A DNA stretch of 64,000 nucleotides from Xanthomarina maritima (GTDB taxonomy: Bacteria; Bacteroidota; Bacteroidia; Flavobacteriales; Flavobacteriaceae). Location: positions 1 to 64,000 of the forward strand of contig NZ_VSFC01000050.1 of NCBI RefSeq assembly GCF_008084905.1, read 5' to 3'. Within the stretch, counting starts at the first letter, position 1; each line of letters opens with the position of its first letter. Under the pieces are notes generated by a model that worked only from the letters and a program-made list of their open reading frames with translations, made no database searches and was not told the origin of the DNA. Both the position numbers and the translations under genes were made by a program. Positions 1-9,473 of the stretch are shown here, in pieces.

Positions 1-111
1 CATACACTTGTTTTGTGTATAGCTATTTCAGGACAAGACACTGCAACATTTGTTCATGCTTGGCAAATCACTCGAAATGACGTTTATTTATATAATGTAC
101 AATTGGCTTAA
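1..111 (+). CDS. C-terminal end of an unidentified protein (partial)
   Basis: Frame 1 is open from the window edge to a TAA at 109-111, giving 36 residues that end in YNVQLA. The start lies outside the window. I do not recognise a family from this short tail. The stop overlaps the stop end of the convergent TonB-dependent receptor by four bases, a tight convergent arrangement typical of compact flavobacterial genomes. It could be a chance open frame, because 111 bases without a stop is not rare. Confidence 0.4.
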   Translation, partial: HTLVLCIAISGQDTATFVHAWQITRNDVYLYNVQLA

Positions 112-2336
112 AATCTATAACTAATATTAGCTTTCAAAAAGAACGGAGTTCCTGGAGTAAAATGTATTTCTTCTACAGGCTCTATCTCGTTTTGTAATCT
201 AGATTCTGTAGCAAATTGTGTTTCGTTCCATTCGGTATCGAAAAGGTTTTCAATAGCAATCCCAAAAACTAAATTATTTGTAAACTCATAACTTAGGTTT
301 AAATCTGTTATGAAATAACCTTCAGCAATTATAGAATTATCTTCGTTTGCTGGTCTATCGTCTAGATAACGATATCTAATGCCACCAGAGAAACCTTTTA
401 AATTATTAACCGATAATCCTCCTGTAAGTGTAAAATCTGGCGCTAATGGAATGTAATCTTCACCTGAAGGCTCATCCACACTTCTTGCATGTGTTAACGT
501 AGCATCTGTATCAAAATACAACCAATCTGTTATTTGATATCTCAAGCCTAAATCTAAACCATATCTTTCTGATTTTCCACTAGGCTCTACAATTCCTGCA
601 TCTCCAACATACACAAACTCTTGTTCCAAGAACAAATACCATAAAGCAGAATTAAACACTACTTTTTTAAATAGTTTCCAAATTGCTCCTAAATCAGCTC
701 CATAAGCTCTCGGTAAAATATCTTCTTCTTCTTGTTGAACCACAACTCTAGTATCATTAGAGTGGAAACCTATTCCTGTTTTTAAGAACCATTGTAGGTT
801 TTGATTCTGATTAAAAAAGAAGTTCAGCTTTGGATTTACAATGGTTTTTGTTTCCGAAAGTGTTTCATAATCGCTAACCAAAGCATCGTTATACATAAAT
901 TTAAAATAGTCTAAACGCAAGGCTGGAGCTACAACAAACTTTCCAAGATCTATATCTGCATTTATGTAGGCAAACATATTGGTTTCGTTTACATCTCCTA
1001 GTGCCATATAATTTAATGTTTCGTTTCTGTTTAGGGTATGCGATAATTCTACATCGTTTACAAAATCGTATCTCATTCCAAAACCTCCAGTATATGTTGC
1101 ATCTACAGATCCTAAATGAGAGTCTTTAATAAATTCAGAATTGAAACCAAAAATATCCCTAGCTTCTTTTTGTTTTATTTGGTCGCCATTAATTTGATCA
1201 TCTAAAAAGAACGTAAAGTTTGAATACAACTCAAAATTATATTGCGAATAAAACACATTGGATTTGAACTGCAAATCTTCAGCTAAAAGCGAATTATATT
1301 CCATGTTAATATTGGTTCTAGACGTGTTTCCTCCTTCAGTATCATCTATAGAACCCCAACGACTAATCATACCACTATCTACAGCTCTTTGAGGAATTTG
1401 CCCTGAAGCATCCCAACGACTATTAAAATGTGACAGTGTAACCGATAGTCTATCGTTTCCTTTTAAATAGGTTGTATATTTCCCAAAGAGGTTGATACGG
1501 TTAAAGTTTTGAGGAGAATCGTAAGGTCCATCAAACTGAATATATTCCAAAGCTATATAGGCATTTTGATTAGGTGTGTTTCCTAACAAATCGAACATTC
1601 CAAGAGTTCTCAAGGAATTAAACTGTCCGTAACTAACACTTACTTCACTAAAGCGAATATCTTCTTTGGTATTAAACTCAACAAAACCAGCTGTATTGAA
1701 ATCGCCTTTATCTGCATAATAAGGTCCTTTTCCGAAGTTAATATTATTGATGGTTTCTGGTATAAGAAAATGTAAATCGCTATAGCCTTGTCCATGAGCA
1801 TGAGACACCATGTTAACTGGAATACCATCTACAGACAGGTTGATATCTGTTCCATGATCGATATCAAAACCACGCAAAAATATTTGTTCTGCCTTACCTC
1901 CACCTGCATGCTGCCCAATAATTAAGCCTGGAACTGTACGCAAAATTTCTTGAGAGGAATTTACAGGATTTGTTTCTAAATCTACTTTCGACAAACTACT
2001 TAAAGCATCAATTTGTTCAGTTATTACTAACTCGTCCAATAAAATAGTTTTGCTTTTTAAAACTATTGAAAGTCCATTTTTGAAATGACTCTCTTTTACT
2101 ACAATAAATGATTTTTCATATCCTAATAAACCAATAGTTAATGAATCTCCTACCGCATTGTTTTCTATTATAAAAGATCCATTGGCTATAGTATGTGCAT
2201 GACTGGAAGATTTAGTATTATAGACATAAACAGCCTCTAATGGCTTTTGGTTGTCGTCTGTAACAATCCCTTTTATGTCTTGAGCATGAGCATTATAAAA
2301 AAATAAAAGCGTTAAGATTGTAAAAAGTCTTTTCAT
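108..2336 (-). CDS. TonB-dependent outer-membrane receptor
   Basis: The 742-residue product has a signal peptide (residues 1-19, ending NAHAQ). A carboxypeptidase-regulatory-like beta-sandwich follows (about 20-100), then a plug domain (about 110-230) and a long beta-barrel that ends in the expected aromatic residue (ISYRF). The family moves substrates across the outer membrane using TonB energy. The plug is unusually histidine-rich, with His143, His161, His179, His181 and His189 in segments GQHAGGGK, DHGTD and SHAHGQGYSDLHF. This may point to a metal or metal-complex ligand, but that is inference. A candidate ECF-type promoter lies about 160 bp upstream and matches the one in front of the DUF4331 operon. 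The divergent neighbour is an ECF sigma factor, so regulation by that factor is plausible. It is not a SusC-type partner, as no SusD is adjacent. Confidence 0.93.
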   Translation of the reverse strand: MKRLFTILTLLFFYNAHAQDIKGIVTDDNQKPLEAVYVYNTKSSSHAHTIANGSFIIENNAVGDSLTIGLLGYEKSFIVVKESHFKNGLSIVLKSKTILLDELVITEQIDALSSLSKVDLETNPVNSSQEILRTVPGLIIGQHAGGGKAEQIFLRGFDIDHGTDINLSVDGIPVNMVSHAHGQGYSDLHFLIPETINNINFGKGPYYADKGDFNTAGFVEFNTKEDIRFSEVSVSYGQFNSLRTLGMFDLLGNTPNQNAYIALEYIQFDGPYDSPQNFNRINLFGKYTTYLKGNDRLSVTLSHFNSRWDASGQIPQRAVDSGMISRWGSIDDTEGGNTSRTNINMEYNSLLAEDLQFKSNVFYSQYNFELYSNFTFFLDDQINGDQIKQKEARDIFGFNSEFIKDSHLGSVDATYTGGFGMRYDFVNDVELSHTLNRNETLNYMALGDVNETNMFAYINADIDLGKFVVAPALRLDYFKFMYNDALVSDYETLSETKTIVNPKLNFFFNQNQNLQWFLKTGIGFHSNDTRVVVQQEEEDILPRAYGADLGAIWKLFKKVVFNSALWYLFLEQEFVYVGDAGIVEPSGKSERYGLDLGLRYQITDWLYFDTDATLTHARSVDEPSGEDYIPLAPDFTLTGGLSVNNLKGFSGGIRYRYLDDRPANEDNSIIAEGYFITDLNLSYEFTNNLVFGIAIENLFDTEWNETQFATESRLQNEIEPVEEIHFTPGTPFFLKANISYRF

Positions 2337-2494: not shown

Positions 2495-2526
2495 AATACC
2501 TACGAAAAAAAATGACATTAGGTTTT
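2495..2526 (-). promoter_or_regulatory. candidate ECF sigma promoter upstream of the TonB receptor
   Basis: On the minus strand AAAACC (2526-2521) is followed after exactly 16 bases by CGTAGGTATT (2504-2495). The same two blocks with the same 16-base spacer recur at 9473-9442, upstream of the DUF4331 operon. The spacing and the CGT-type -10 box resemble ECF promoters in general. The start codon of the receptor is about 160 bases downstream, so the leader would be long. Confidence 0.55.
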
Positions 2527-2606
2527 ATAAACTTCTTAAATAAACATTTATTTATACAATGATTATCATATATTTTAGTATTTTAGAAACTTATTAAAAA
2601 CACTAT

Positions 2607-3137
2607 ATGCAATTAGAACAACTTGTTTCTAAATTTCAAAACAAAGACGAAAAAGCTTTTGAAACTTTATACCACATGTATAGCGAAAGCATGCTTGGCG
2701 TTATTTATAATATTGTTAGAGATCAAGATATAGCTCAAGACGTAATGCAGGAAGTTTTTATAAAAGCTTGGCATAGTGCAGACAGCTATTCTCCACAAAA
2801 AGGGAGATTTTTCACCTGGCTGATAAACATTTCTAGAAATGCAGCTATAGATAAGATACGCTCTAAAAGCTTTAAAAACTCAGGTAAAAACCTCAATTCA
2901 GATTATTTCGTAGATATCATACAAGACCATGATAACTTGGACGAAAAAACCGATGCCATTGGCATTAAAAAGTTTGTTAGTAAACTGAAAAAAAAGTGCA
3001 TTGAAGTCATTGAACTTTTATATTTTAAAGGGTACACACAAAAAGAAGCCTCAGAAACTTTAGACATGCCTATTGGAACTGTAAAAACAAGAAATAGAAA
3101 TTGTATAAACGAGCTAAGACTCATGCTCGACGTTTAG
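2607..3137 (+). CDS. ECF-type RNA polymerase sigma factor
   Basis: The 176-residue product has sigma-70 region 2 (about 10-80, with the core-binding stretch DQDIAQDVMQEVFIKAW and the DNA-melting part RFFTWLINISRNAAIDKIR). Region 4 follows (about 118-170, with a helix-turn-helix around GYTQKEASETLDMPIGTVKTR). There is no region 3, as in ECF factors. The ATG is the first in frame and the anti-sigma gene follows after one base, so the two are cotranscribed and probably translationally coupled. The receptor gene is divergent. Likely targets are the receptor and the DUF4331 operon, judged from shared promoter-like elements; this is inference. No copy of that element faces the sigma gene itself. 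Confidence 0.93.
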   Translation: MQLEQLVSKFQNKDEKAFETLYHMYSESMLGVIYNIVRDQDIAQDVMQEVFIKAWHSADSYSPQKGRFFTWLINISRNAAIDKIRSKSFKNSGKNLNSDYFVDIIQDHDNLDEKTDAIGIKKFVSKLKKKCIEVIELLYFKGYTQKEASETLDMPIGTVKTRNRNCINELRLMLDV

Positions 3138-3138
3138 T

Positions 3139-3945
3139 ATGGATATTAAAGACTACATAGAATCTGGAATTTTAGAGCTGTATGTTGCAGGATCACTTTC
3201 TGAAAAAGAGAATCAGGAAATCTATGCGCAATTATTAAAACATCCAGAATTACTAGACGAAGTTTTAAAAATAGAGTCAACCATAGTAAAACTAACAGCA
3301 GCAGTATCTCCAACAGACACGAAACATTTGTTTAAAGCTGTAAAAGAAAAACTAGGTATAATTACAGACAAAGAAACTACCGTTAGACCATTACACAAAC
3401 CTGGAACAAATTGGTTTAGTTTTGTAGGTTGGGCAGCATCGCTTGTTATAGGACTTGGTTTATTTTGGTTTATTATTGAGAATAACGACTTAAAAGAACA
3501 AATTCAAACGGTAGAAACAGACAAGGAACTTTTAGAAGTAACTATTGAAAAATATAGTAACGATTTAACCGAAACTAAACAACTCATCACTTTCTTAAGA
3601 GACAAAGACATTATTGCTGTACCACTTGCTGGACAAGCTGTATCTCCAGACTCTTATGCAAAAGCTTATTGGGATAAAAAAACCAACACAGTTGTTTTAG
3701 ATGTACAAGGTTTACCAGAACCACCACAAGGAAAAGTGTATCAGGTTTGGTCTTTAACTTTGAATCCGTTAACACCAACCAGTCTTGGAACCATAGATAC
3801 CTTTAGTACAGACGAGAACAAACTCTTTACTATTGAAAATGCCAATGCTACTGAAGCCTTTGGGATTACTTTAGAACCAGCAGGTGGAAGCGAATCTCCT
3901 ACTCTTGAGCAATTGTATACGCTTGGAGTTGTAGAAGCGTCTTAG
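3139..3945 (+). CDS. RskA-type anti-sigma factor
   Basis: The 268-residue protein has a cytoplasmic N-terminal part (1-90) and one membrane span (about residues 93-113, WFSFVGWAASLVIGLGLFWF). A coiled-coil-like stretch follows (115-160), then a periplasmic anti-sigma-K (RskA) domain with the typical LPEPPQGKVYQVW motif. The N-terminal segment has the layout of an anti-sigma domain but lacks an obvious zinc-binding HxxxCxxC. It starts one base after the sigma gene stop and is followed by a hairpin terminator, so the operon is just these two genes. It presumably holds the upstream sigma factor inactive until a periplasmic signal arrives. The signal cannot be read from sequence. Confidence 0.9.
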   Translation: MDIKDYIESGILELYVAGSLSEKENQEIYAQLLKHPELLDEVLKIESTIVKLTAAVSPTDTKHLFKAVKEKLGIITDKETTVRPLHKPGTNWFSFVGWAASLVIGLGLFWFIIENNDLKEQIQTVETDKELLEVTIEKYSNDLTETKQLITFLRDKDIIAVPLAGQAVSPDSYAKAYWDKKTNTVVLDVQGLPEPPQGKVYQVWSLTLNPLTPTSLGTIDTFSTDENKLFTIENANATEAFGITLEPAGGSESPTLEQLYTLGVVEAS

Positions 3946-3980
3946 GGTTTAAATTCATTTTATTGAACATATTTACTTCT

Positions 3981-4031
3981 AATAACTCATTGTCGCTATT
4001 AATTTTGTGGATAATGAGTTATTTGTTTTTT
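3981..4031 (+). terminator. intrinsic terminator of the sigma/anti-sigma operon
   Basis: A perfect 11-base inverted repeat, AATAACTCATT (3981-3991) and AATGAGTTATT (4013-4023), is followed by TGTTTTTTAT. The loop is 21 bases, longer than usual, but the U-tract supports termination on the plus strand 36 bases after the anti-sigma stop. Confidence 0.65.
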
Positions 4032-4136
4032 ATAAAACTTATTTAAATATTTTGATATTAAAGACTATCCATAACTTTGAGATTTAAGGGTAAAAGCACA
4101 TGAAATATCTTTTTTAAAATATTACAAACCAAACCC

Positions 4137-4164
4137 TTGACACAGATTGACACAAATTGACACA
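4137..4164 (+). repeat. three TTGACACA repeats with 10-base period
   Basis: TTGACACA occurs at 4137-4144, 4147-4154 and 4157-4164, separated by GA and AA. The period matches one helical turn, so the copies lie on the same DNA face. This suits an iterated protein-binding site upstream of the 4389 gene, but no regulator can be named. Confidence 0.6.
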
Positions 4165-4197
4165 TATATGCTATTTTAAGGTGGTTTTGTTTGAGAC

Positions 4198-4261
4198 TTG
4201 TTCGAGAACGACTTTACTGTATTTTTTAAAAATCGAGCTTTTTGAGAGGGTTCTCGAACAA
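4198..4261. repeat. REP-like inverted repeat
   Basis: TTGTTCGAGAAC at 4198-4209 is perfectly inverted as GTTCTCGAACAA at 4250-4261 with a 40-base interior that is itself rich in T/A tracts. The TTCGAGAAC core resembles the imperfect palindromes often scattered between genes in flavobacteria. There is no other copy in this window that I noticed. Confidence 0.5.
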
Positions 4262-4388
4262 AACTGGAAGCAAAACCCTAAAAAACCCATTAGAAAGACT
4301 AGAAAACTATGTTACTTTAGTAGCTTGTATATCGTGGATATGGACTATTGTATGTATACAATTGTTGGCTAATATTAAGAACAAAATA

Positions 4389-5198
4389 ATGAATAAAATT
4401 ATATATATTCTGATTTTAGGAATACTACCTATTTCTGCCTTTTCACAAGAAATATCTAATAAAATAATACTGGATTCAATAATAAAAGAAGCTGACTTAC
4501 TTTATAATTATGAGAAAATTACATGGAACTCTACAGATTTGGCTTATTCAAATAAACGAATTAAAGAAAATATTGGGACGTATATAGTGTATCATTCTAA
4601 TGACACACTTTTTGCTGTTTTTGCAGATAAAGAATATAAAAATCAAATAGCAAAATATACTTTTACCAAGAAAAATTTAAAAGTTCCCTGCTCAGAGGAT
4701 TTTGAAATTAAACCAATACCAGAAAAAATTTCAAAAATATTTGAAATTAAAAATGTTATTCTCAATAATCTTAATTCTAATTCAGAAAAATATAGTTTCA
4801 GCTTTCAAAAAGGTTTTAATCCAAACCCAGTATTGATTCCTGAAGTTAATGGATTTAAACTTTATATAATTATTGGGACGCCTAACTCAAATGTAATTCC
4901 CTTTGGAAATGATTATTTATTTAAAACAGACAAAAGAGGAAATATTATATATTGGAGAAAATTTCATAAAACATTAATAGCTACTCAAACTAAAGGTCCG
5001 AACAACGAAGTTGTTGTTTCTGCAATACATTCTCATTTAAAAATGACGCCCTACATTTCGGCAACTGATATTTGCACATTTAGATTATATGGATTTGATT
5101 TATTTGGAATAGAAGAATTTATAGTGACTTCTACTGCATTAAATAAGTTATTTATATATAACGCAAAACAAAATTCAATAACAGAAACAGATTTATAA
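4389..5198 (+). CDS. exported protein of unknown function
   Basis: I chose the ATG at 4389 because it opens a clear signal peptide (MNKIIYILILGILPISAFSQ). The longer frame begins with a TTG inside the inverted repeat and has no export signal at its end. The mature protein is about 249 residues and hydrophilic, with no motif I recognise. Segments such as GTPNSNVIPFGNDYLFKTD and the repeated short Tyr/Phe-rich beta-like strands suggest a globular beta-rich periplasmic or secreted protein. It stands alone between a terminator and a convergent TPR gene. Its A+T content appears slightly higher than that of its neighbours, so recent acquisition is possible but unproven. Confidence 0.75.
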   Translation: MNKIIYILILGILPISAFSQEISNKIILDSIIKEADLLYNYEKITWNSTDLAYSNKRIKENIGTYIVYHSNDTLFAVFADKEYKNQIAKYTFTKKNLKVPCSEDFEIKPIPEKISKIFEIKNVILNNLNSNSEKYSFSFQKGFNPNPVLIPEVNGFKLYIIIGTPNSNVIPFGNDYLFKTDKRGNIIYWRKFHKTLIATQTKGPNNEVVVSAIHSHLKMTPYISATDICTFRLYGFDLFGIEEFIVTSTALNKLFIYNAKQNSITETDL

Positions 5199-5231
5199 AA
5201 GTAAGCCAACATCGTGCTGAGACACCTATAT

Positions 5232-5272
5232 AAAAAAACAAAAACGCCAAGCTTAAACAAACTTGACGTTTT
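5232..5272 (-). terminator. terminator of the TPR/DUF4331 operon
   Basis: The arms AAAACGCCAAGCTT (5241-5254) and AAACTTGACGTTTT (5259-5272) pair fully only on the minus-strand transcript, where two positions become G-U wobbles. The A-run at 5232-5240 supplies the U-tract in the same direction. It lies about 100 bases past the TPR gene stop. Confidence 0.65.
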
Positions 5273-5373
5273 CACAAAAAACCAACAAAAAACACTAGCA
5301 AATCCCTCAATATGTATTTTTAACTTAAAAAAACATGTTTTTTATTGGTTTAGACTACTTCAATATTCATAGA

Positions 5374-6669
5374 TTAAATTTTAAGAATCTCACGTTCCAT
5401 AACTGGTCCAAGCTCAAATGTACTTTCTAATAATTCTTTTTTTAAATTTTCAGCTTCAGCTATTTTCCCATTGGCTTTGTAAATTTTAGCTAAATGAAAT
5501 AAAACTTCAGGTTCGAATGTTTTATTTGCAACATGTTCTTCGGCTACAATTAAAGCATTAATATATTTTCCTTTATTATAGTAGGTCCAAGCCAACAAAT
5601 CGTAAGACTGTGGTGTGGGTCTATTTTCAATTTCGGTATTTGCAATTTGTTGAGCTTTATCTATTTTTTGTAATTCTTCAGCATATAATATAGCGTTATA
5701 CTTATTGTACATATTGCCATATTTTGTGTTGGCAACGGCATTAAAATATTGATTTAGATTTTTTTCTTTTTCTTCTAAATTGTTTTGGTATTCAGCAATA
5801 TCAGATTTAAACAAATAATAATCTGGTGCTTGATGATTATTAGAAATACTATTTAAAATACGAAGGGCTTCATCTGGATTTTTTTCATAAGAATAAACAA
5901 TCCAAGCAATTCCTTTTTTTGCATAGGCATTGTCTGGATGTAATGCCAAGGCTTTTAAATAATAGGTGTAAGACTTATCTATTTCTCCGTTATGTCCGTA
6001 AAAATCAGCAATGTTTGTGTAGGTCCATTGCTTAAAGTCAGCCATATTAGAAGATTCTGAAATAGCCATAGCTTGTTCCATATATTTTATAGCAGCCTGT
6101 AAATCTCCTTGATGATCGCTCCATTTTGACAAACGGATTAAGTAATCGAAATCTGAAACATCTTTAATTTCATAAAGGTATGTTTTAGCCATTTCGTGAT
6201 TTCCTAATTCTAAATAGACATCAAAAAGCATCTTTTGAGTGCCTTTTAAATTTTCTCCTATGGTTTCTGCTTTTTTCAAAAGTTCCAAAGACTCTTTAAA
6301 TCTATGTTGCGAAATATAATTTCTTGCTAGAGCTCTTAAATAACCTGATTGCATGTAATTTGTGCGTTTATTTGCTTGAATCAAGCTTTCTTCAGCATGA
6401 ATTAAATAATCGATATCTCCAGTAGTATGAAACATTTTAGATTGTGCCGAAGCAATTTTAGTCAAATAAGGAAACTGACTCGGTTCTTTTTCTAGCTTTT
6501 CTTCCCAAAATTTAAGTTCCTCAGTGGCTTTTTGCTTTGTTATATTTTCTTTTGATTCCAGATATAGATTATAATCTTCTACATCTGTAATTTTGTTTTG
6601 GTTTGTATGACAACTGGTTAAAAACAGTAGCAATACAACCATTAGTATACATTTGTTAAACGTTTTCAT
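5374..6669 (-). CDS. TPR-repeat lipoprotein
   Basis: The 431-residue product has a lipoprotein signal (VVLLLFLTSC, Cys20), so it is probably anchored in a membrane facing the periplasm. At least six to eight degenerate tetratricopeptide repeats follow; one clear repeat is WTYTNIADFYGHNGEIDKSY with the next helix pair YLKALALHPDNAYAKKGIAW. TPR arrays are protein-binding scaffolds and no catalytic motif is seen. It is the last gene of the DUF4331 operon (73 bases after the C-half gene) and a terminator follows. Its conserved placement suggests that it acts with the DUF4331 products or the receptor, which is inference. Confidence 0.85.
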   Translation of the reverse strand: MKTFNKCILMVVLLLFLTSCHTNQNKITDVEDYNLYLESKENITKQKATEELKFWEEKLEKEPSQFPYLTKIASAQSKMFHTTGDIDYLIHAEESLIQANKRTNYMQSGYLRALARNYISQHRFKESLELLKKAETIGENLKGTQKMLFDVYLELGNHEMAKTYLYEIKDVSDFDYLIRLSKWSDHQGDLQAAIKYMEQAMAISESSNMADFKQWTYTNIADFYGHNGEIDKSYTYYLKALALHPDNAYAKKGIAWIVYSYEKNPDEALRILNSISNNHQAPDYYLFKSDIAEYQNNLEEKEKNLNQYFNAVANTKYGNMYNKYNAILYAEELQKIDKAQQIANTEIENRPTPQSYDLLAWTYYNKGKYINALIVAEEHVANKTFEPEVLFHLAKIYKANGKIAEAENLKKELLESTFELGPVMEREILKI

Positions 6670-6742
6670 TTTGTTTGTTTTTTGTTTTGTTTTTAAAAAA
6701 AATCAGAGCACACTTGAAGCATGCTCTGATTATGAGCATATT

Positions 6743-7330
6743 TTACCAAGGTGAGGCGAGATATGGGAAATCACCTAAAAATGCTTTATCGTTAGCATCT
6801 ACGTTATCGTTTGATAATGTTGGATATTCCGGATTTGTTAATCCAGTTTCACCTCCAAAAATCAAAATAAGTTCTACAGTAATCACATCGTCTGTTAAAG
6901 CTCTTCCTGTTAAAACATTCGTTCCATCAAAGAAAGTTGTTACACCATCTAATGAGACGTTTAACACATCTGTAGCTAATAAGCCTGTAAAAGTTGCAGC
7001 ATCTAATCCTAATGCATTTGTGTCTTCAGGATTAGCATAAGCTGGACTTAAAGCCATTAAATTAGTTTGAAACATAGATTGAAACAGAGAGTTTTGTTCC
7101 GAAGGAATAGTCGTGTTAAACATATCTTTGCTAGTTGAACTAACAAAAACCGTGTTTACAGCAGGTCTTCCCATCTGGTCTTCCTGTAAATAGATTGCTT
7201 GAAATGGATTGCCTTTTTTATAGACTTCTTCTTCTTTTTGAATATCCATCTGATCGTTGTCGCTACAGCTAAATGCCATAAACGCTATAATTGCAGATAA
7301 TGCGACTAGTTTTATATTATAAATTTTCAT
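6743..7330 (-). CDS. DUF4331 C-terminal half, lipoprotein (copy 2)
   Basis: The 195-residue product has a lipobox (AFMAFSC) and then only the C-terminal part of a DUF4331 protein: QMGRPAVNTVF, LTGRALTDDVITVEL, LSNDNVDANDKAFL and a FPYLASPW end. In fused family members this part follows directly on the half encoded by the upstream gene. The gene begins 17 bases after that N-half gene, so the pair is cotranscribed. DUF4331 has no established biochemical role. This protein is a close paralogue of the one at 8157-8729, and both keep all motifs. The C-half is therefore probably a surface or periplasmic lipoprotein that rejoins its N-half non-covalently; that is inference. Confidence 0.85.
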   Translation of the reverse strand: MKIYNIKLVALSAIIAFMAFSCSDNDQMDIQKEEEVYKKGNPFQAIYLQEDQMGRPAVNTVFVSSTSKDMFNTTIPSEQNSLFQSMFQTNLMALSPAYANPEDTNALGLDAATFTGLLATDVLNVSLDGVTTFFDGTNVLTGRALTDDVITVELILIFGGETGLTNPEYPTLSNDNVDANDKAFLGDFPYLASPW

Positions 7331-7347
7331 GATTTTCGTTTTTTGGA

Positions 7348-8010
7348 TTATTGTTTTCTTTTAGATTCTACCCAAGTGTTTATAGTACCTGTACCTCCAA
7401 TCATGGATTTAGGTACTTCAACAACTACAGATAAAACATTAGTACCAGCAAAAGTGTCTGCTCCAGGATTGTTAAATCCAGTGGCATTACCACTAATAAT
7501 AGCACTATATTGTGCAAAGTCCATAAAAAACGGATCATCTCTAGGTCCTGCAAAGATTGACATTCCATCACTAGAAGTGTTAATAATTGCCTGAGAACCA
7601 TAAGGAGTAATTTCTACTTTAGAAACATCGTTGCCAAAATTTGATGCTTCTAGAGTGCTTATTAAACCTGTTTGCGAAGGTGCAACTGGTCCAATAACAT
7701 TCATTTTGTCATCTTTCCTAATAGCTTGAATGACTAAGTCCTCAATATTATCTCCATTAGTATCAATGTTAAATTCAATCATAACATTTTCGTCAAAACT
7801 AGCATTTGCAGTTGCTCCTGGACTTAAAAGCCCTTGAAGGTTCGCTACAAACACCATGTTGTCTGTATTTTTCGCCTGAAAAACATAGAAGTCTGTAATA
7901 TCGCTAGCACCACCAGCTACTTCTGGAGCATCAATGTGGTCTGCTGCGATAATGAATAAACCAGCAGCAAACAGCAAACTGATTCCAAAAATTTGATTCA
8001 TTTTTTTCAT
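7348..8010 (-). CDS. DUF4331 N-terminal half, secreted (copy 2)
   Basis: The 220-residue product carries a signal peptide (cleavage near FIIAADHIDAP) and the N-terminal DUF4331 motifs: ADHIDAPEVAGGASDITDFYVF, IFAGPRDDPFFMDF and TGFNNPGADTFAGTNV. The end is NTWVESKRKQ, just where fused family members would continue into QMGRP. That continuation is encoded by the next gene. Most positions are identical to the copy at 8752-9402, apart from the middle (about residues 110-150). The two copies probably arose by duplication of the two-gene unit. Start ATG at 8010; a second ATG four codons on is also possible. Confidence 0.87.
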   Translation of the reverse strand: MKKMNQIFGISLLFAAGLFIIAADHIDAPEVAGGASDITDFYVFQAKNTDNMVFVANLQGLLSPGATANASFDENVMIEFNIDTNGDNIEDLVIQAIRKDDKMNVIGPVAPSQTGLISTLEASNFGNDVSKVEITPYGSQAIINTSSDGMSIFAGPRDDPFFMDFAQYSAIISGNATGFNNPGADTFAGTNVLSVVVEVPKSMIGGTGTINTWVESKRKQ

Positions 8011-8113
8011 AATAAATGTATTTAATTAATAAATTATTTTTTCACAACATTGAGGCTTCTTATAGTAGATATGGTTTGCTAATCTGGCTAGGTTAAGTAT
8101 TAAGATTTAAGTG

Positions 8114-8148
8114 ATAGCATCAACATGTGATAACCATGCTGATGCTAT
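8114..8148 (-). other. hairpin between the two DUF4331 gene pairs
   Basis: ATAGCATCAACATG (8114-8127) and CATGCTGATGCTAT (8135-8148) form a 14-base stem with a 7-base loop, complete on the minus strand through one G-U wobble. It begins 9 bases after the stop of the upstream C-half gene. No U-tract follows, so partial termination or mRNA processing seems more likely than a full stop. Confidence 0.5.
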
Positions 8149-8156
8149 TTATTATT

Positions 8157-8729
8157 TTACCAAGCAGAAGCTAGGTAAGGAAACGAGGCTAAAAAAGGCT
8201 TATCGTTTGCATCTACATTATCATTTGAAAGCGTTGGATTTTCAGAAAAATCTTCACCTCCAAAAATTAGAAGCAATTCTACTGTAATAACATCGTCTGC
8301 TAAGGCACGACCAGTTAACACATTAGTTCCATCGTAAAACGTAGTGGTTCCATCTAATGACAGATTTAATACATCTGTAGCCAACAATCCTGTAAAAGTT
8401 GCAGCATCTAACCCAAGTGCATTGGCATCTCCAGGATTTGCGTAAGCAGGACTTAAAGCCATTAAATTAGTTTGAAACATGCTTTGAAAAGCAGCACCTT
8501 GCTGAGAAGGAGGAGTTATGTTATACATATCTTTACTTGCCGAAGACCCAAAAACAGTGTTTACTGCTGGCCTTCCCATTTGATCTTGTTGCACATAAAG
8601 ACCAGAAAAATCTGGTTCTGTCGGCATTGGAGTTACCGTATTCATATCATCATCGTTTGAACAATTAAAGGCTAAACCTGAAATCATTAAGACTGCAATG
8701 ATGTTTTTTATATTTAATAGAGTTTTCAT
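8157..8729 (-). CDS. DUF4331 C-terminal half, lipoprotein (copy 1)
   Basis: The 190-residue product has a lipobox (ISGLAFNC), a short acidic linker (SNDDDMNT) and the C-terminal DUF4331 motifs QMGRPAVNTVF, NALGLDAATFTGLLATDVLN, LTGRALADDVITVEL and LSNDNVDANDKPFL, ending FPYLASAW. Long stretches match the paralogue at 6743-7330 exactly, while the region after the lipobox differs. The gene starts 22 bases after the N-half gene of the same pair. Function is unknown. The duplicated arrangement and common operon suggest that both pairs are expressed together under the candidate ECF promoter at 9442-9473. Confidence 0.86.
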   Translation of the reverse strand: MKTLLNIKNIIAVLMISGLAFNCSNDDDMNTVTPMPTEPDFSGLYVQQDQMGRPAVNTVFGSSASKDMYNITPPSQQGAAFQSMFQTNLMALSPAYANPGDANALGLDAATFTGLLATDVLNLSLDGTTTFYDGTNVLTGRALADDVITVELLLIFGGEDFSENPTLSNDNVDANDKPFLASFPYLASAW

Positions 8730-8751
8730 AATTCTAGTATTTTAAAGGTTA

Positions 8752-9402
8752 TTATTGTTTTCTTTTAGATTCCACCCAAGTGTTTACAGTTCCTGAACCA
8801 CCTAGCATGCCTTTTGGTACTTCTACTACAATAGACATCACATTTGTTCCTGCAAAAGTGTCTGAGCCTGGATTATTGAATCCAGTTGCATTTCCAGCTA
8901 TAATTTCACTATACTGTGCAAAGTCCATAAAGAATGGATCGTCTCTAGGGCCAGCAAATATTTTCAGTCCATTACTTGTTTTAGTAATCGCGTTAGACCC
9001 ATAAGGTGAAATATCAACCACAGATTGTGCTCCAGCCGTTTCGATAGAACTATTTAACCCAGTAGTTCCAGGGTTTGTTGGTCCAAAAAAGTACATTTTA
9101 CCATCTCTTGGAATAGCTTGAATAACTAAATTTTCAACATTATCGCCAGTAGTATCAATGTTAAACTCAATTAACACATTTTCATCAAATGTTGCATCTG
9201 CAGTTGCCATAGGACTTAATAATCCTTGAACATTTGCAACAAATACTACATTGTCTGTGTTTTGCCCTTGAAAGGCGTAGAAATCTGTGATATCACTTGT
9301 ACCACCTTGTACTGCAGGAGCATCGATATGATCTGCTGCAACCATAAAGAAACCAGCAACTGCTAAGATGCTAATTCCTAATATTACTTTCATTTTTTTC
9401 AT
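8752..9402 (-). CDS. DUF4331 N-terminal half, secreted (copy 1)
   Basis: This is the first gene of the five-gene minus-strand operon. The 216-residue product has a signal peptide (GFFMVAADHIDAP), the family signatures SDITDFYAFQ, FAGPRDDPFFMDFAQYS and GNATGFNNPGSDTFAGTNV, and the same NTWVESKRKQ end as its paralogue. Full-length DUF4331 proteins are roughly twice as long, so the domain has been split between this gene and the next. A candidate ECF promoter lies about 40 bases upstream of the start. A second ATG three codons downstream is an alternative start. Confidence 0.88.
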   Translation of the reverse strand: MKKMKVILGISILAVAGFFMVAADHIDAPAVQGGTSDITDFYAFQGQNTDNVVFVANVQGLLSPMATADATFDENVLIEFNIDTTGDNVENLVIQAIPRDGKMYFFGPTNPGTTGLNSSIETAGAQSVVDISPYGSNAITKTSNGLKIFAGPRDDPFFMDFAQYSEIIAGNATGFNNPGSDTFAGTNVMSIVVEVPKGMLGGSGTVNTWVESKRKQ

Positions 9403-9441
9403 AATAGTGAGTTTTTTGTTAATTAATAATTGTCTCTCACC

Positions 9442-9473
9442 AATACCTACGAAAAAAAGTATAAGTCGGTTTT
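9442..9473 (-). promoter_or_regulatory. candidate ECF sigma promoter of the DUF4331 operon
   Basis: On the minus strand AAAACC (9473-9468), a 16-base spacer and CGTAGGTATT (9451-9442) repeat the element found at 2526-2495. The spacers differ in their first eight bases but both end in a T-run. Transcription would start near 9435, giving a leader of about 30 bases to the first DUF4331 gene. Confidence 0.6.

Follow-up and report, generated by a model that had tools for sequence, protein, structure and literature searches.

Many extracytoplasmic function (ECF) sigma factors activate their own operon, so that sigma factor and anti-sigma factor rise together. A locus of Xanthomarina maritima raises the question of which genes such a sigma factor might serve, and how its inhibitor is supplied, where the sigma gene itself is preceded by no copy of the promoter element found before its presumed targets. 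The window, meaning the whole stretch of DNA that was analysed, comprises bases 1-64,000 of contig NZ_VSFC01000050.1 (C20 in our numbering) from a genome of 3,041,326 bases. It encodes an ECF sigma factor, an RskA-type anti-sigma factor, a TonB-dependent receptor and an operon of DUF4331-half and TPR genes (Table 1). With a probability of roughly 0.78, this sigma factor would transcribe the operon and the receptor gene and would also drive negative feedback through a promoter located inside its own gene and pointing at rskA. What the sequences establish are the elements and their conservation, the freezing of synonymous codons beneath the embedded copy, and a second, paralogous system with other boxes.

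A preliminary description of this DNA had reported two matching elements upstream of the receptor gene and the operon. Both lie where it placed them, with exact boxes at N16 spacing, and each precedes the gene or operon named; the five operon genes are more precisely four DUF4331-half genes and one TPR gene. ECF promoters combine an AAC-type -35 box with a CGT-type -10 box about 16 nt apart, and AAAACC-N16-CGTA conforms to this in box type and spacing, which makes it a predicted ECF promoter. The genome search that had been proposed yields exactly two matches to AAAACC-N16-CGTAGG in the whole genome. A loosened pattern (up to two mismatches, TA added) occurs at 23 places and is unspecific, so that within one genome only the strict form is informative and comparison between genomes is the stronger test.

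For this comparison, 249 genomes of the family were taken, 104 of which, the window's own included, encode DUF4331. Besides the window's, 99 of these genomes yielded 100 fetched regions (G070 gave two; four genomes were not covered), giving 101 loci with the window; each extends over at most about 20 kb, and receptor or sigma genes farther off were not counted. A common layout recurs, in which an ECF-rskA pair faces a DUF4331N-DUF4331C-TPR operon, the receptor gene often comes next, and a LETM1-related gene is mostly divergent upstream. With no motif assumed, AACC-N16-CGTA was the top dyad of 4+4 bases upstream of the first DUF4331 gene, present in 78 of 101 loci, compared with at most 12 loci for any dyad in ten shuffles. 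In these upstream regions AAACC-N16-CGTAGG is exact in 45 of 101 loci and carries one mismatch at equal spacing in 17 more; N15 spacing fits best in nine, and about ten, read by eye, have no convincing site, some owing to misplaced start codon calls. Genome-wide, the strict form MAAACCN16CGTARRTA occurs in 131 of the 249 genomes, with 253 copies in the 104 DUF4331 genomes and 63 in the 145 without DUF4331 (means of 2.43 vs 0.43 per genome; reversed control, 142 and 160), a comparison for which a Mann-Whitney p is not a true probability because the genomes are related.

The receptor gene behaves consistently with membership in the same regulon. Receptor homologs scoring more than 700 bits were located in the window and in 180 further fetched loci (L086-L265); in 68 cases the receptor gene comes directly after the TPR gene, and in three it stands apart. 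All three stand-alone receptors (the window, L186 and L187, which are close relatives of each other) have the element within 400 nt upstream (3/3). Since a receptor gene lying outside the operon carries its own promoter copy, the pairing of receptor and operon is better supported than by the window alone. The two matching elements mark a small group of surface genes that are probably under the control of one sigma factor, and the receptor-plus-operon grouping of the preliminary description is well supported by conservation across family loci. No element (0-1 mismatches) was found upstream of any of the 81 LETM1-related genes scanned. Two further arrangements were seen in individual loci: in L114, L146, L151 and L158, back-to-back element pairs separate a small lipoprotein-like gene from a gene whose product starts like a glycosyltransferase (by eye) and point to extra candidate targets, and in L093 (11486-12032, + strand) two more elements lie between the TPR gene and rskA, before sequence with no recognised gene.

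It had also been stated that the sigma factor's own promoter lacks the element. This is true upstream of the sigma gene, and it overlooked a conserved copy inside the sigma open reading frame (ORF) aimed at rskA. Within 300 nt upstream, the element with 0-1 mismatches occurs before none of 75 ECF genes from the first 101 loci, a set in which as many as six may be weak ECF matches of 24-34 bits. The same kind of control count for rskA (0-2 mismatches, spacing 16, within 300 nt) found it in 67 of 72 genes, that is, within the sigma gene. In the window, the embedded copy is a one-mismatch match of the genome pattern scan. All 71 sigma orthologs, the window's included, contain a match in the same codon frame with at most three mismatches to the 11-base pattern (0, 1, 2 and 3 mismatches in 3, 55, 10 and 3 orthologs), and in L159 the best match lies 12 nt off the usual position. 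Of 70 sample orthologs, 57 have the strict form AAACC-N16-CGTA embedded, as do 79 of 80 named orthologs. In an order-level sample that was not chosen by element, 20 of 26 rows could be judged (six lacked an anchor), and 17 carry the embedded element exactly, two with one mismatch of nine, and one not at all. In addition, twelve DUF4331-free genomes were selected for holding elements (G127 and G242 qualified too and were left out), of which eight hold a sigma ortholog of at least 270 bits, each with the embedded element.

An overlap between promoter-like boxes and a coding sequence might simply reflect the protein. Under this explanation, folding or anti-sigma binding would require Asn-Leu...Phe-Val in the linker, and it would be by chance that the codons fit the boxes; indeed, Asn95, Phe101 and Val102 are invariant in an alignment of 17 sequences. 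The codons themselves tell otherwise. In 69 of the 71 orthologs (at least 500 nt), 169 columns were compared with the codon usage of other annotated genes in the same loci. Phe101 is TTC in 69 of 69 (expected 14.6), Val102 is GTA in 69 of 69 (27.5) and Asn95 is AAC in 68 of 69 (24.1), while Leu96 is CTN in 63 of the 66 shown; Phe100, immediately beside Phe101, is TTT in 29 of 29. Phe101, Asn95, Leu96 and Val102, all under the two boxes, are the top four synonymously constrained columns of the 169. If columns are exchangeable, the odds of the four top ranks landing on box codons are about 3 in 10^8 by hand calculation, the uniform TTC and GTA codons having been noticed by eye before the constraint test. 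Such synonymous constraint under the boxes means that the protein alone is an insufficient explanation.

A comparable pattern appears in a second ECF-RskA pair, a paralog scoring 137-163 bits against the profile of the first, which the window's genome also carries, on contig C8 (L382, L431). Its sigma genes contain their own embedded element, [AG][AG]TCC-N16-CGTATA, in the same linker in 36 of 36 cases. Val is encoded by GTA (expected 11.2) and Tyr by TAT (expected 21.8) in all 36 sequences, and C is the last base of the TCC-forming codon throughout (36/36). The codon before Val likewise ends in C in all 36 sequences, although it encodes five different amino acids (Asn 19, Asp 9, Ser 4, Ala 3, Thr 1). 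By total constraint, the four box columns rank 1, 2, 6 and 8 of 162. With TTC and GTA fixed in the first system and C-ending codons spread over five amino acids in the second, the idea of a mere protein constraint was rejected, and a by-product origin of the embedded match is highly improbable. Among 34 matches to the paralog, 30 loci were fetched; the embedded site is present in all 30 scanned, none has a sense site in the fetched DNA preceding the sigma gene, and three have an opposite-strand matching site just upstream. The distinct conserved boxes in the two pairs indicate that each system carries its own box sequences.

These boxes also bear on which sigma factor is involved. That the adjacent sigma factor drives the surface system, as first proposed, agrees with co-occurrence and adjacency, and it is from these that recognition of the elements by this factor is suggested. 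Alternatively, another sigma factor of the genome might read both upstream elements: adjacency does not equal recognition, and ECF regulons may overlap, as parts of a study in Flavobacterium psychrophilum indicate (PMC9723704). This is very unlikely, given that element counts track the DUF4331 module and that the paralogous ECF-RskA pair, the one pair of the genome compared here, has different boxes, TCC-N16-CGTATA.

The proposed mechanism can be outlined as follows. Gene order and family suggest that the RskA-type protein binds and inhibits the neighbouring sigma factor. Once freed from this membrane anti-sigma factor, the sigma factor would recognise AAAACC-N16-CGTA(G/A) and transcribe the DUF4331-half/TPR operon, the receptor gene (usually an operon member, here served by its own promoter copy), and the distal part of the sigma gene together with rskA from the promoter lying where the sigma2-sigma4 linker is encoded. 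The rskA start follows the sigma stop at a median distance of 1 over 148 pairs (143 of 148 within -30 to +10 nt; 1 base in the window). A start inside the sigma ORF would raise the anti-sigma factor without new full-length sigma factor, splitting negative feedback from positive autoregulation. The element was found within the sigma gene and not upstream of it, and active sigma factor would accordingly raise its inhibitor and its targets, and not itself. The embedded element probably switches on the inhibitor of the sigma factor; its activity, its recognition by this sigma factor and anti-sigma feedback as the outcome are steps that we infer.

Two other roles for a functional embedded element deserve consideration. 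The main competing explanation is that it binds sigma holoenzyme as a roadblock, pause or decoy, giving negative sigma autoregulation, and is not an rskA promoter. Promoter-like intragenic sites that pause RNA polymerase or remain silent are discussed for other sigma factors in parts of a published account (PMC10771440), and the embedded -10 box does deviate (CGTAGA, CGTAAA). Nevertheless, both boxes are kept at N16 and in sense orientation to rskA, with no antisense strict copy in either ortholog set (150 orthologs), so that a roadblock is considered unlikely. The second possibility is a real promoter with another product, for which a 3'-end RNA or a peptide consisting of sigma4 only would be examples. 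Of 150 genes, 130 have an in-frame ATG after the presumed start, 94 of them at one region 4 codon; however, that codon reads Met 4, Ile 11, Thr 1 and Leu 1 in 17 divergent sequences (counted by eye), and rskA comes directly next in nearly all pairs, which makes a different product quite unlikely.

To examine how widely an rskA-directed promoter inside the sigma gene might occur, a panel across the phylum was assembled from 61 of 77 PF10099 places, the 16 left out all being from the window's family; four of the 61 lack an ECF gene, leaving 57 ECF genes. The panel pattern, A[AG]NCC-N16-CGTA, was set from the two systems after 30 panel linkers had been inspected. By family, in our numbering, embedded sense matches are found in f1 (4/5), f5 (2/2), f17 (4/4), f18 (4/7), f23 (2/2) and f24 (1/1), and in none of the sigma genes from the remaining families of the window's class, f19 (0/3) and f22 (0/3), or from families of other classes, f29 (0/7), f34 (0/2), f35 (0/1), f36 (0/19) and f37 (0/1). 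Outside f1, 13 of 52 RskA-linked sigma genes carry it, against 0.67 expected from synonymous shuffles, with one antisense match. Moreover, 17 of 18 sense matches lie 241-277 nt before the ORF end, within or at the edge of the linker. On this panel sample, the embedded-element trait is class-level and not phylum-wide. It is rather likely that, across the class, many RskA-paired ECF genes hold a self-type promoter in the sigma2-sigma4 linker, kept long enough to dictate codons and amino acids and giving anti-sigma-only feedback, with own boxes for each paralogous pair and, in some genera, a sigma-dependent small RNA completing the regulon.

Several observations weigh against an embedded rskA promoter read by this sigma factor, or against its generality. 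The embedded element is absent from all 36 RskA-linked sigma genes of f19, f22, f29 and f34-f37. The three orthologs with three mismatches (3/71) fit the pattern loosely, the sigma ortholog of G174 has no embedded element, and neither do L278 and L279, paralogs nearer to the window's sigma factor than the second system. The commonest -10 form is CGTAGG upstream of the operon vs CGTAGA in the sigma gene. The 8/8 count in DUF4331-free genomes is biased by the element-based choice of those genomes, and many pattern matches lie elsewhere in family genomes, among the matches listed.

A further candidate member of the regulon lies past the operon end, where the window has a T-rich motif with a terminator-like hairpin. 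The ends of 219 TPR or receptor genes, some of which are not operon ends, were examined, and 44 have the related T-run motif TTTTTTGTT(A/G)GT within the next 600 nt; two of the 44 cases (L112, L118) look spurious. In most of 16 aligned sequences the motif is followed by an inverted repeat and a T-run. Fourteen of the 44 cases, including ones in Olleya, Lacinutrix and Mesoflavibacter, have an exact element ahead of it. Where the short unit has its own element, it is possibly a sigma-dependent small RNA. A conserved short unit past the operon end, as in the window, was seen in L197, L201, L202, L208, L100, L162 and others. In the window itself, the best element before the motif has three mismatches, so that there only the end of the operon transcript is possible; the T-rich motif has one other place in the genome. 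Rfam returned no match above the gathering score for the 3' element in seven loci other than the window, and two non-window RNA pieces, ending inside the terminator, gave fold z-scores of 0.85 and -0.74. On the leader side, TAACAAAAA is found in the 60 nt before 35 of 152 DUF4331-N, 10 of 148 TPR, 1 of 129 DUF4331-C and 2 of 148 ECF genes, and before no receptor, rskA or LETM1 gene. Pairing of the small RNA with the operon leader was considered; against it, the T-rich motif is retained where the leader has no match. An operon-leader hairpin, GTGAG...CTCAC, was seen by eye, and the folded piece, minus its first bases, gave no structure.

Table 1. Genes and sequence elements of the sigma factor locus, in window coordinates.
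Feature	Position	Strand	Remarks
TonB-dependent receptor	108..2336	-	PF00593, PF07715; outside operon here
Predicted ECF-type promoter element, receptor gene	2495..2526	-	AAAACC-TAATGTCATTTTTTTT-CGTAGGTATT, N16 spacing
ECF sigma factor gene, SigK-like	2607..3137	+	PF04542, PF04545; best solved relative SigK 4nqw
Embedded element in sigma ORF, pointing at rskA	2887..2916	+	AAAACC-N16-CGTAGATA; full AAAACCTCAATTCAGATTATTTCGTAGATA; synonymous constraint
rskA, anti-sigma factor gene with RskA_C domain	3139..3945	+	PF10099; 1 base after sigma stop
T-rich motif GTTTTTTGTTGGTT and terminator-like hairpin past operon end	5236..5300	-	fold z-score -4.0
TPR protein, last operon gene	5374..6669	-	domain search
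Second DUF4331 C-terminal-half protein, tandem copy	6743..7330	-	domain search
Second DUF4331 N-terminal-half protein, tandem copy	7348..8010	-	domain search
DUF4331 C-terminal-half protein	8157..8729	-	domain search
DUF4331 N-terminal-half protein, first operon gene	8752..9402	-	domain search
Predicted ECF-type promoter element, DUF4331/TPR operon	9442..9473	-	AAAACC-GACTTATACTTTTTTT-CGTAGGTATT, N16 spacing

The protein families agree with these assignments. The sigma protein combines PF04542 with PF04545/PF08281 over 176 aa, that is, sigma regions 2 and 4 within a short polypeptide, as expected of an ECF sigma factor. The anti-sigma protein matches PF10099 at 1.9e-18 (residues 102-255) beside the ECF gene, identifying an RskA-type domain, and scores 99.6 bits with the NCBIfam antisigma model NF052375, 0.4 bit under the cut-off of 100. 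DUF4331 (PF14224, 421 positions) is divided between two genes, one covering the profile to about position 237 and the other from about 243; this half-gene pair is doubled in tandem in the window (6743-9402, - strand) and single in most fetched relatives. A gene for a LETM1-related biofilm-associated protein (NF040639; 9552-10727, + strand) diverges from the operon, as in most fetched relatives. By sigma factor, the nearest named relatives, each with 93% identity, are Flavobacteriaceae bacterium LYZ1037 and Xanthomarina spongicola; no DUF4331 match was obtained in G038, the sole other genome of the window's genus in the family sample.

If the proposed mechanism is true, the embedded promoter would uncouple sigma factor from anti-sigma factor, giving pure negative feedback. 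The promoter specificity of uncharacterised sigma factors would then be readable from sequence alone, with the site written inside the gene, and the DUF4331 system gains its first candidate regulon. A literature search, with most subscription journals outside its reach, found no recognised description of an embedded anti-sigma promoter and no paper on the DUF4331 system.

Among known systems, FecI/FecR-type surface signalling combines a FecR-domain anti-sigma factor with a receptor bearing an N-terminal signalling domain. At E<=0.001 no STN or FecR domain was found here; the anti-sigma factor has RskA_C, and the receptor N-terminus is CarbopepD_reg_2. The Escherichia coli rpoE-rseABC operon resembles the window in having the sigma gene followed by the anti-sigma gene on one strand. 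The E. coli sigmaE promoter consensus is GGAACT-N15-17-TCAAA and, unlike in the window, the best site for it lies 110 nt upstream of rpoE with one mismatch; no comparable internal site was found, the sites inside rpoE among the eight best having three mismatches to this consensus. In F. psychrophilum SM6, an ECF-type promoter motif with a CGT -10 box, as in the window elements, is described in the main-text parts of a promoter study, with one start attributed to an ECF/anti-sigma gene pair and another to the small RNA Rfp11; unlike for the window, these parts describe no embedded start (PMC9723704). The closest likeness by family is to SigK-RskA: the sigma factor is nearest to SigK both in NCBIfam and among solved chains (4nqw), the anti-sigma factor shares PF10099, and the genes are adjacent and co-directional. 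What distinguishes the window pair, in a comparison that does not extend to the transcription of sigK itself, is the self-type element inside the sigma ORF.

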